Assembly (NCBI GenBank): GCA_030625815.1
Contig: DAOUQF010000001.1
Location: forward strand, 186,001-250,000
Direction of reading: 5' to 3'
Length of the DNA: 64,000 nt
From: Eubacteriales bacterium
Lineage (GTDB): Bacteria > Bacillota > Clostridia > Tissierellales > GPF-1
A program made the translations under genes and the position numbers. Positions 3,193-64,000 of the stretch are shown in pieces (position 1 is the stretch's first letter; every line of letters starts with the position of its first letter). The notes below the pieces were generated by a model, which was given only the letters and a program-made list of their open reading frames with translations, was not told the DNA's origin and made no database searches.

Positions 3193-5439
3193 ATGAAAAA
3201 ACAGGAAAATTTTAACACGGGAACGTGGCAAGAAGCCATAGATGTACGAGATTTTATTCAAAACAATTACATGCCTTATCTGGGAGACGAGGCGTTTTTG
3301 ACAGGAAAGAGTCAAAAAACGGCAATTCTTTGGGAAAAAGCGGAAAATTTGATTTCAGAGGAAATTGAAAAAGGAATTATTGGCGTAGATACGGAAACAT
3401 TTTCCGGGATCAATCATTTTAAGCCCGGCTATTTGGATAAAGAAAATGAGGTCGTTGTAGGTTACCAGACAGACTCGCCATTGAAACGTGTTATGAATCC
3501 TTATGGCGGATTTCGCATGGTGGAAGCATCTTTGAACGCCTATGGGTTTGAGATGGATGAAGAATTAAAGGCGGATTTTCAAGAATTTAGAAAAACGCAT
3601 AATGACGGCGTTTTTGACGCCTATACGCCGGATATGAGAAAAGCGCGCTCGATTGGATTAATGACAGGGCTTCCTGATGCCTATGGACGCGGTCGAATTA
3701 TCGGGGATTATCGACGAATCGCTTTATATGGAATTGACCGTTTGATCGAAGAACGCAAAAATGATTTTGCCAATCTGGCGAATCGGGCTGCAGTAGAAGA
3801 GATGATTCAGTTGCGAGAGGAAATCAATGAGCAATTGCGCGCCTTGGTTGCTATGAAAGAGATGGCTTTAAGCTATGGCATTGATATTTCTCAACCCGCA
3901 AAGACTGCTTCAGAGGCGGTGCAATTCTTGTATTTTGGTTATCTGGCGGCAATCAAGGAAAACAACGGGGCGGCTATGTCTCTTGGCAGAAATACAGCCT
4001 TCTTGGATGTATACATCGAACGAGATTTAGTGGCGGGTGTGATTACGGAAGAAGAAGCGCAAGAAATGATCGATCAATTTGTGATCAAGTTAAGAATGGC
4101 GCGTCATTTGCGCACACCAGACTACAACGCCTTGTTCGCCGGCGACCCGACTTGGGTGACAGAGGTGATCGGAGGCATGGGTACGGATGGACGTCCAATG
4201 GTGACGAAAACTTCTTACCGTTTCTTGCATACCTTAACGAACCTTGGATCAGCACCGGAACCGAATATGACGATTTTGTGGTCGGACAAATTGCCGAAGG
4301 CTTTCAAGCGCTATTGCGCGAAGATGTCTATAGAAACGGGTGCTATTCAATATGAAAACGATGATTTGATGCGTCCGATTTATGGGGATGACTATGGAAT
4401 CGCATGCTGCGTATCTGCTATGCAGCTCGGTAAACAAATGCAGTTCTTTGGTGCGCGAGCCAACCTGGGCAAGGCCTTGTTGATGGCGATCAATGAAGGA
4501 TATGAAGAAGTGAAAACGGACAAAGCAGGCAATCTAATTCAAATGATCGATGGAATCGAAAAAATTGAAGAGGGCGCTTTGGTCTATGACGAAGTGATGA
4601 AACGATTCAATCAAGTGATGGAGTATTTGGCTGAGTTGTATGTAAATACCATGAATACAATTCATTATATGCATGACAAATATGCCTATGAAGCGGGTCA
4701 AATGGCATTGCATGATGCCTTTGTTCATCGATTTATGGCATTTGGGGTTGCTGGGATCTCTTTGGTGGCCGACTCCTTAAGCGCCATCAAATATGCAAAG
4801 GTAACGCCGATTCGAAATGAAGCGGGGATTACGACGGATTTTGCAATTGAAGGCGAATTTCCGAAGTACGGAAATGATGATGACCGTGTGGATCAGTTGG
4901 CCGTTGATGTGCTTGAAAAGTTTGTTGCCGAGTTGAAAAAACATCCGACTTATCGAAAATCAGAGCATACGCTGTCTGTTTTAACCATTACATCGAATGT
5001 GGTTTACGGCAAGAAAACCGGAGCGACTCCGGATGGCCGTAAAAAAGGAGAGCCCTTTGCGCCGGGTGCCAATCCAATGCATGGACGCGATGAAAAAGGT
5101 GCGCTGGCTTCTTTGAACTCCGTTGCCAAGCTTCCGTATGAAGGGGTTTGCCAAGATGGAATTTCCAATACCTTCTCCATCGTGCCGGCGGCATTGGGCA
5201 AAGAGGATGAAGTACGATACGCAAACTTGACTTCGATCTTGGATGGATACTTTGAGCAAAAGGCATTCCATTTGAATGTGAACGTAATGGAGCGTGCATT
5301 GCTGATTGACGCGATGGAACATCCTGAAAAATATCCGACTTTGACGATTCGTGTTTCTGGTTATGCCGTTCACTTCAACCGCTTAACAAAAGAACAACAA
5401 TTGGAAGTCATTCAACGAACATTCCACGAGGCTGTTTAG
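3193..5439 (+). CDS. pflB: Pyruvate formate-lyase (formate C-acetyltransferase)
   Basis: The cytosolic glycyl-radical enzyme that converts pyruvate and CoA to acetyl-CoA and formate in anaerobic fermentation. At 748 residues it has the length of canonical PFL. The catalytic adjacent cysteines are in [10 protein letters not shown] (Cys405-Cys406). The radical glycine is Gly723 in RVSGYAVHF near the C-terminus. The N-terminal pattern [13 protein letters not shown] and the block [14 protein letters not shown] also fit PFL rather than a diol dehydratase or other glycyl-radical enzyme. The start follows GAAAGGGG. The activase gene follows after 8 bases. It is likely induced without oxygen through the operator at 3110-3123. 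Confidence 0.97.
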
Positions 5440-61378: not shown

Positions 61379-62131
61379 ATGAAAATTTTGGAAGTTAGAA
61401 ATCTTGACGTCTATCGAGGCGATAAAAAAATATTAGAGGACGTTTCCTTTTCCTTGAAACGAGGGGAAGTTTTAGGAGTTCTTGGTCCCAATGGCGGAGG
61501 CAAAAGCACCTTGGTGCAAACCATCGCTCGATTAATTCCCTTTGCCAAGGGGGTTGTTTGGATTCGGAAAGGCGAGCGATTGGGGTATGTGCCGCAATTC
61601 GCGACCTTTGATTCCGAGTTCCCGATTACGGTTGAGGAAGTGGTGCTAAGTGGAAGCGCCTATTATTCGAAGCGGAAGCGCGTCGCTACGGGAGACGATC
61701 GAAAAGCGAAAGATCTGATCAAACAATTTCAATTGTCCGAGGTAGCGGATCATTCGATTGCGGCTTTATCCGGCGGACAAAGCCAAAGGGTTTTAATCTG
61801 TCGCGCATTGATGGGCGATCCAACGATTCTTTTGATGGATGAACCAACGGCCAGCATTGATTTTCAGACGAAAGATCAGATAATCCGACAACTGCGAGAT
61901 AAGAAGCCGGAGATGGCTATCATTTTGGTCAGTCATGATTTGAATGTGGTGAATCAGACGGTCGATTCCATTCTCTGTGTCAATTTTTATGCCGATTTTC
62001 ATCCGGGCAATCAATTGGAATCGGAGAATCTGAAAAAGGTCTACGGTTGTCCCATTGAAGTGATCTTGCATGGCGAAATTCCTCATCGGGTTTTGGAAAC
62101 ACATCACAAGAAAGGGGAGGACGAGTCTTGA
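61379..62131 (+). CDS. znuC: Zinc/manganese-type ABC transporter ATP-binding protein
   Basis: A 250-residue ATPase of the metal-chelate (ZnuC/MntB) group. Walker A is GPNGGGKST, the Q-loop is YVPQFATFDSEFPITVEE (the typical metal-family stretch), the signature is LSGGQSQRVLICRAL, and Walker B is ILLMDEPTASIDF. The H-loop is LVSHDLNVV. GGGGAGGG precedes the ATG. The permease gene overlaps the stop by 4 bases. The binding protein is not in this window, so Zn versus Mn is open. Confidence 0.88.
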   Translation: MKILEVRNLDVYRGDKKILEDVSFSLKRGEVLGVLGPNGGGKSTLVQTIARLIPFAKGVVWIRKGERLGYVPQFATFDSEFPITVEEVVLSGSAYYSKRKRVATGDDRKAKDLIKQFQLSEVADHSIAALSGGQSQRVLICRALMGDPTILLMDEPTASIDFQTKDQIIRQLRDKKPEMAIILVSHDLNVVNQTVDSILCVNFYADFHPGNQLESENLKKVYGCPIEVILHGEIPHRVLETHHKKGEDES

Positions 62132-62943
62132 TTTTTTCCTATCAATTTGTACAGAGAGCACTCATAGCGACCTTTTTTGCAGGAATTATTTCCGGTGTAT
62201 TGGGCACCTTGATTACAGAAAAGAAAAAAATTATGATGACCAGCGGGGTTGCCCATGCCTCTTTCGGTGGAATAGGATTGGGGTATTTATTGGGAATTGA
62301 TCCGATTGTGCCTGCCTTGGGTGTGGCCGGATTGGTGGTTATGATTATAAAACGAATGGAAGAAAAGCTGTCGAGTCATTCAGATACGGTAATGGGAATG
62401 CTTTGGGCTTTGGGGATGGCGCTTGGCATGATCTTTGTTGGCATGCGCCCTGGGTATCCGCCGGATATGACGAGTTATCTGTTTGGCGATATCTTAACAA
62501 TTTCCGGACGCGATTTGTTTTTTATGATCTTTGTCAGTTTGAGTTTTCTTTTGATCTACAGCCTTCGATTTGAGCAGTGGAAATTGATCCTTTTTGATGA
62601 AGAGCACGCAAAGCTTCAGGGGTTGTCGGTGGATCGATACAAGTCGGTCTTTTATTTATCCATCGCGGTGGCGGTTATTGCAATGATAAAAGTTGTTGGC
62701 ATTATTCTCACCCTCGCGATTTTGACAACACCGCCCATGACGGCAAAGCTCTTTACGAAGCGGTTGCTGCCTCGTATGCTTGTGGCAACGATCTTCGCTT
62801 GGCTCACCATATTTTCGGGATTCTTTTTGTCGTTTTTGATCGATGTGCCTTCGGGAGCCATGATTATATGTGTTTCTGTTCTGGTGTACTTTGCCATGGC
62901 GAGCGGGAAAAAGATGAAAAAAGCTCTTGCATTCCGTCAATGA
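62128..62943 (+). CDS. znuB: Zinc/manganese-type ABC transporter permease
   Basis: A 271-residue membrane protein with about eight helices. Family blocks are AGIISGVLGTLITEKKKIMM, GVAHASFGGIGLGYLLGIDP, and AVIAMIKVVGIILTLAILTT followed by PPMTAKLFTKRLLPRM. These define the ZnuB/MntC permease family. It uses a TTG codon (62128) with GGGGAGGACG upstream, overlapping the znuC stop. The glnA promoter -35 lies in its last codons. Confidence 0.88.
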   Translation: MIFSYQFVQRALIATFFAGIISGVLGTLITEKKKIMMTSGVAHASFGGIGLGYLLGIDPIVPALGVAGLVVMIIKRMEEKLSSHSDTVMGMLWALGMALGMIFVGMRPGYPPDMTSYLFGDILTISGRDLFFMIFVSLSFLLIYSLRFEQWKLILFDEEHAKLQGLSVDRYKSVFYLSIAVAVIAMIKVVGIILTLAILTTPPMTAKLFTKRLLPRMLVATIFAWLTIFSGFFLSFLIDVPSGAMIICVSVLVYFAMASGKKMKKALAFRQ

Positions 62944-62955
62944 TTTATGTATACT
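62927..62955 (+). promoter_or_regulatory. glnA: glnA promoter
   Basis: The -35 TTGCAT (62927-62932) and -10 TATACT (62950-62955) have a 17-base spacer. The start would be near 62962, so the whole structured leader is transcribed. Confidence 0.7.
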
Positions 62956-62961
62956 CTTCCT

Positions 62962-63035
62962 AACAACTAAATCACTTATCGGACAACGGCGTCCAACAGG
63001 CAGGGATAAAACTCGGCTTAGTTGTGGCGCTTTTT
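62962..63035 (+). ncRNA. Structured glnA leader with ANTAR-like hairpin and overlapping terminator
   Basis: A hairpin GGAC-AACGGC-GTCC (62981-62994) has a six-base loop with A at position 1 and G at position 4, the pattern recognised by ANTAR antiterminators. A terminator can form from GCGTCCAAC (62989-62997) and GTTGTGGCGC (63021-63030, one bulged T), followed by five T. It uses the 3' half of the first hairpin, so the two exclude each other. A further pairing, ACAACTAA (62963-62970) with TTAGTTGT (63018-63025), would also break the terminator. In solventogenic clostridia glnA is linked to the ANTAR regulator NitR. A second hexaloop hairpin is not found. Confidence 0.55.
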
Positions 63036-63057
63036 ATGTTTTTATGGAGGATGAAGA

Positions 63058-64000
63058 ATGAATCGTAATTTTAACAAGGAAGATGTTTTACGTATTGCCA
63101 CTGAACAAGAAGTTGCTTTTATTCATCTGCAATTCACGGATGTTGCAGGAGTTATGAAGAACCTCTCGATTCCATTGAATCAACTTGAGGCGGCTTTGGA
63201 CAATGAGCTGATGTTTGATGGTTCTTCCATCGATGGATTTGTTCGGATTGAAGAATCGGACATGTATTTGTTCCCGGATCCAACGACATTTGTCATCTTC
63301 CCTTGGTCGACACCAGGCGGTCTGGAAGCTCGTTTGATCTGTGACGTTTACAAAGCGGACGGTACGCCGTTCGACGGATGTCCCCGCCAGACTTTGAAAC
63401 GCGCATTGAAAAAAGCGGAAGACATGGGATACACTTTGAATGTAGGCCCAGAATGTGAATTCTTCCTGTTTAGCACGGATGAATCAGGAGAACCGACTTT
63501 GGAAACTCATGACAAAGCGGGATATTTTGACTTGGCTCCCGTTGACATGGGCGGCAATGCCCGAAAAGATATGGTGAAAGCATTGCAAGACATGCATTTC
63601 TTGGTCGAGGCTTCTCATCATGAGGTAGCAGAAGGCCAGCACGAAATTGACTTTAAATTTGATCATGCACTGCGAGCTGCAGACAGCATTATGACATTCA
63701 AAATGGTTGTTCGAATTATGGCTCAGCGCCATGGGCTGCACGCAACCTTTATGCCGAAGCCAGTTGCCGGCATCAACGGTTCTGGCATGCATATCAATAT
63801 GTCTCTTTCCACATTGGAAGGCAAGAACGCCTTTTATGACGCGGATGGCGATCAACAATTGTCAGAGGCAGCTTATGAGTACATTGCAGGCTTGGTCAAG
63901 CATGCCAAAGGATTCGCCGCTTTAACCAATCCGACTGTCAATTCATACAAACGTTTGATTCCGGGTTATGAGGCACCGACTCTGATTGCTTGGTCAGCAA
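63058..64000 (+). CDS. glnA: Glutamine synthetase type I (3' end beyond window)
   Basis: Joins ammonia to glutamate with ATP, the main entry of ammonia into metabolism. The first 314 codons are present. ATG 63058 follows TGGAGGATG. The N-terminal beta-grasp part ([20 protein letters not shown]) and [20 protein letters not shown] are typical of the GSI-alpha group of Firmicutes. The catalytic part has [28 protein letters not shown] and [19 protein letters not shown]. The frame runs open to the window end at [20 protein letters not shown]. No adenylylation site can be judged since the C-terminus is missing. Confidence 0.96.

Follow-up and report, generated by a model that had tools for sequence, protein, structure and literature searches.

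The leader of glnA in this genome is very probably a transcription attenuator controlled by a NitR-type receiver–ANTAR protein that is encoded just after glnA itself. The leader was analysed within a window of 64 kb (the whole stretch of DNA under study, 64,000 nucleotides), and all of its features lie on the plus strand. At its centre is a short antiterminator hairpin, GGAC-AACGGC-GTCC, at 62981–62994 (GGAC, 62981–62984; loop AACGGC with A1 and G4, 62985–62990; GTCC, 62991–62994), a predicted ANTAR (NitR) binding site recognized by sequence, covariation, fold and pattern search. A search with GGRCAANGGCGTCC, allowing at most one mismatch, returns this hairpin as the sole match in the 64 kb window, where 0.11 would be expected by chance. 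Fold and covariation also define a terminator stem-loop at 62989–63030, assembled from the pairings GCGTC (62989–62993)/GGCGC (63026–63030), CAAC/GTTG, AGGC/GCTT and GGG/CTC, with a U tract (TTTTT) evident from the sequence at 63031–63035. Positions 62989–62994 belong to both structures; because loop bases 5–6 and the 3′ stem of the hairpin are used by each, hairpin and terminator are mutually exclusive. A preliminary description of this DNA had claimed both the A1/G4 hexaloop and a terminator that borrows the 3′ half of the hairpin, and both are borne out.

Folding is consistent with this anatomy. The complete glnA leader folds better than its shuffles (z −2.3), and the 41 nt from 62962 to 63002, folded alone, form only the hairpin at 62981–62994 (−5.5 kcal/mol); the terminator is predicted at −14.7 kcal/mol and would prevail once transcribed. 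A simple promoter and terminator scan of the window found neither the terminator nor the promoter of glnA, probably because the terminator stem is interrupted and the −35 element weak.

A promoter-scoring script places a −35-like TTGCAT (62927–62932) 17 bp before a −10-like TATACT (62950–62955), which puts the predicted transcription start at about 62962, some 19 nt ahead of the hairpin; 25 nt separate the end of the −10 element from the hairpin. This predicted 5′ end (62962–62980) is unpaired in the fold of 62962–63002, and a hairpin search of the glnA leader found no second A1/G4 hexaloop hairpin within it. The preliminary description had likewise put the start near 62962 and argued that it leaves no room for the usual first hairpin; in the 19 nt available none is formed. 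AACTAAATCACTTATC, within 62962–62980, is identical across three species of the genus. The 16 nt immediately before the hairpin (62965–62980) are identical in three species while their flanks differ. Ahead of the hairpin, the motif CTAAAT occurs in 6 of 51 glnA/amtB leaders (0.9 expected), and three of these six belong to one genus. Downstream, a ribosome-binding site region (63045–63050) precedes the ATG of glnA at 63058, which encodes a type I glutamine synthetase of 445 aa and runs past the window end (63058–64000). Genes resembling a metal-type ABC transporter ATPase and permease (61379–62943) end directly 5′ of glnA, and the glnA −35 element falls within the 3′ end of the putative permease gene.

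The preliminary description had suggested looking beyond position 64000 for an ANTAR regulator, and there is one: nitR, a receiver–ANTAR gene of 193 aa (PF00072 receiver and PF03861 ANTAR domains), lies past the window end at G000:C12:250463–251041 and starts 67 bp after glnA. It encodes one of two PF03861 proteins in the parent genome. The glnA–nitR arrangement recurs in many genomes of the same order and in named clostridial genomes, with synteny kept across families. On its domains and synteny we assign the protein, as a putative NitR, to the glnA-linked receiver–ANTAR type. By sequence, the solved structures closest to it are EutV (6wsh, 6ww6) and a putative antiterminator (1s8n). RNA contacts in EutV involve Tyr164, Lys143 and Lys147 (PMC8934654); in an alignment with residues counted by hand, Tyr164 corresponds to Tyr in NitR and Lys143/Lys147 to Arg/Arg. 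Among NitR-type receivers the acceptor Asp is invariant (alignment A2), and the second residue of the acidic pair is mostly replaced, as in VDADE of the window species and VADSSE elsewhere; in this pair the kinase-linked EutV-like ANTAR proteins differ from them. No kinase gene was found among the immediate neighbours of nitR in the stretch that was read, and a phosphorylation-independent signal to NitR is possible.

The second ANTAR gene, on contig C8, adjoins the gene of a PdtaS-type kinase and falls in another, EutV-like branch. Beside this regulator and kinase, outside the window, are two near-identical tandem attenuator-like copies (locus L004, G000:C8:84000–94000, about 4180–4650, minus strand). 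Each reads GAATCTTGCAAGA(T/C)GAATTGTAAGA followed by a hairpin and a T run, and they lie 5′ of an octopine-type dehydrogenase gene; they may be tandem ANTAR targets in which G occupies loop position 1.

Homologous leaders were sought via the regulator, because a DNA similarity search convincingly found only two sister species. Within the genus, all three species have an identical AACTAAATCACTTATCGGACAACGGCGTCCAAC, and the upper terminator stem varies with its pairing mostly kept. Further afield the hairpin changes on both sides: GGGC-AAAGGC-GTCC, GTAGGC-AAAGGC-GTCTAC, GTGAGC-AAAGGC-GTTCAC and GAAC-AATGAC-GTTC all occur in other families. Across a set of 22 leaders, C10, A11, A12, G14 and G17 are invariant and the C–G closing pair of the hairpin is constant, while double-sided changes affect 4 of the 6 hairpin pairs (the four outer ones) and 7 of the 10 terminator pairs. 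The covariation scores of both stems were reached by none of 500 shuffles (which ignore kinship) and fall when the pairing partners are slid. The preliminary description had held that a GGAC/GTCC stem without covariation would speak against the element; the stem covaries. An overlapping hexaloop, TTTG-ATTGGG-CAAA, in loci L082 and L083, readable also in the amtB leader of the window genome, is not conserved elsewhere and was discarded.

A covariance model built from the 22 leaders finds two convincing sites in the window genome: the glnA leader (54.7 bits) and C22:49811–49858 (39.9 bits), 55 bp before an Ammonium_transp gene (amtB). The amtB copy is kept in both sister species. Searching 391 genomes of the class (threshold E 0.01 or better) gave a match in 70, and matches precede glnA, glnN (type III glutamine synthetase), amtB, gltB-type and related amidotransferase genes. 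An ANTAR protein is encoded in 65 of the 70 genomes with a match versus 131 of the 321 without (Fisher p 5e-17, a significance inflated by kinship). The five positive genomes in which no ANTAR gene was found may reflect matches that look spurious, in some cases, or incomplete assembly. Within the order, all 20 positive genomes fall among the 37 of 249 that have an ANTAR protein. One match (G141, locus L175) was dropped, the hairpin being absent on inspection by eye. Matches occur outside the class as well: elements precede apparent glutamate dehydrogenase genes at L269 and L275, and amtB-like genes at L271 and L277 are preceded by dual-hairpin elements.

The published ANTAR target comprises two A1/G4 hexaloop hairpins, both important in eut (PMC3369931), and the glnA leader might be a classic dual-hairpin target with a degenerate first hairpin, or with one that sits on a longer, unrecognized transcript. 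We consider this unlikely. Dual targets do exist in related bacteria: our search for a first hairpin recovers them in eut-type leaders (L203, L205) and in family f57 glnN leaders, and a further hexaloop hairpin lies about 60 nt upstream in a single glnA leader (L074). Some loops resembling a first hairpin carry G for A at position 1 (L176), and the 16-nt segment ahead of the hairpin, being unchanged in the three species, may matter. Promoter geometry nevertheless argues against a missing partner. Of the 77 distinct elements whose predicted promoter is good, 35, including the amtB copy of the window genome, have a strong −10 element so close that less than 16 nt of RNA separates the predicted start from the hairpin, too little for a first hairpin of minimal size and its linker; in several, TTGACA-17-TATAAT ends 7–10 nt before the stem. 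Where there is room, a first hairpin with A1/G4 was found in 0/23 glnA leaders against a chance expectation of 0.29, and in 0/6 amtB, 4/5 glnN and 1/3 glxB-type leaders (at most 0.3 expected by chance in each group); the amtB leader of the window genome gave none. The search can see dual hairpins, since it recovers those of the eut-type and some glnN leaders, and duals before amtB-like genes are visible outside the class. Of the features that define the dual-hairpin family (Ramesh et al. 2012), the window leader has the A1/G4 loop, the covarying stem, the terminator overlap and an ANTAR protein in the genome, but a linked upstream second hairpin is absent, and we therefore class the element as a single-hairpin variant and not as a member of that family. 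The single-hairpin ANTAR target suspected in the preliminary description is thus supported by promoter geometry across Clostridia, where the predicted one-hairpin form turns out to be widespread.

Two readings without a regulatory ANTAR protein are less probable still. The preliminary description had also suggested a small unknown riboswitch and had noted an extra pairing enclosing the element; a metabolite aptamer (for example for glutamine or 2-oxoglutarate) would then be formed by this pairing and the inner hairpin. A small leader with an expression platform ahead of glnA would suit such a reading, and the enclosing pairing, ACAACTAA/TTAGTTGT (62963–62970/63018–63025), is indeed present in the window sequence, where it is borderline against shuffles (P 0.05). 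It fails as a conserved part, however: in one sister species (G001) only G–U pairs keep it, in the other (G002) it is broken, and across 51 leaders it is mostly at chance level relative to shuffles, with no consistent counterpart elsewhere. What is conserved is a core hairpin of 14 nt, and the elements occur together with ANTAR genes. Rfam covariance models, including the glutamine riboswitch (glnA RNA), gave no match in the window at E ≤ 10 or in eight related loci at E ≤ 1, and we regard a riboswitch as highly improbable. The enclosing pairing would cover the 3′ arm of the terminator and might aid antitermination in the window species. We give equally little credence to a constitutive attenuator, a plain terminator that merely lowers glnA expression beside a fortuitous hairpin. 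The greater predicted stability of the terminator speaks for such an attenuator, but the invariant loop positions and double-sided hairpin changes, the repeated use of the element before nitrogen genes and its association with ANTAR genes all speak against it.

For the NitR-controlled attenuator we propose the following course. By default the nascent RNA would form the terminator, and transcription of glnA would end at about 63035. Active NitR, the presumed signal being nitrogen limitation, would bind the single short hairpin at its A1/G4 hexaloop once the hairpin emerges; the bound hairpin would withhold the strand needed by the terminator, allowing polymerase to read into glnA. On this model one hexaloop would suffice for NitR, and glnA and amtB would both be turned on by it, a two-target regulon in the window genome. 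Against the sufficiency of one hairpin stands EutV, which needed both stem-loops for full binding and induction (PMC3369931). The transcript starts used here are predicted, and if an unrecognized promoter lay further upstream, the longer RNA could include a first hairpin.

The glnA leader resembles the targets of EutV in E. faecalis eut, NasR in Klebsiella nasF and AmiR in Pseudomonas amiE in its A1/G4 hexaloop and conserved closing pair, and shares with them a hairpin that overlaps the 5′ arm of the terminator and an association with nitrogen-related genes (PMC3369931). Those systems use a pair of hairpins with a short linker between them, both needed in eut, whereas the glnA leader has only the terminator-overlapping one. 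The regulator differs too: it is of the NitR kind, its receiver is atypical, and no kinase gene was found in its immediate neighbourhood. Another close system is the glnA–nitR cluster of C. saccharobutylicum, in which an ANTAR regulator is linked to glnA; according to a review, NitR there induces GS/GOGAT genes when nitrogen is limiting, and does so by antitermination (PMC6316151, citing Stutz 2007). NitR control of glnA in clostridia is already known. In the texts searched we found no description of an RNA target with a single hexaloop, of such a target recurring before amtB, glnN and glutamate-synthase-type genes, or of its spread; Stutz 2007 may describe the clostridial leader.

More recent work redefined the minimal ANTAR motif as one hexaloop, predicted single-hexaloop sites and asked how common they are (PMC8934654). 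It would place single sites where the timing of polymerase imposes no limit and reserves two hexaloops for antitermination, whereas the glnA-type elements are single and lie on terminators. The elements collected here offer many single-hexaloop candidates on terminators. Should one hairpin suffice in NitR systems, a very small leader would allow a direct test of the structural question posed in 2022, namely whether one hexaloop is able to act on a terminator. A broader proposal, to which we give somewhat less than an even chance, is that Clostridia have a separate, widespread class of single-hexaloop attenuators, often with very little RNA ahead of the hexaloop, served by NitR-type regulators whose receivers come with a partly lost acidic pair, perhaps independently of a kinase. 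If true, two hexaloops would be dispensable for ANTAR antitermination, and nitrogen status would reach the RNA by another route, for example through glutamine synthetase or PII. The standard ANTAR-target model and the genome searches that follow it require two hairpins; if one hairpin suffices in NitR systems, such searches miss a large clostridial nitrogen regulon comprising glnA, glnN, amtB and glutamate-synthase-type genes.
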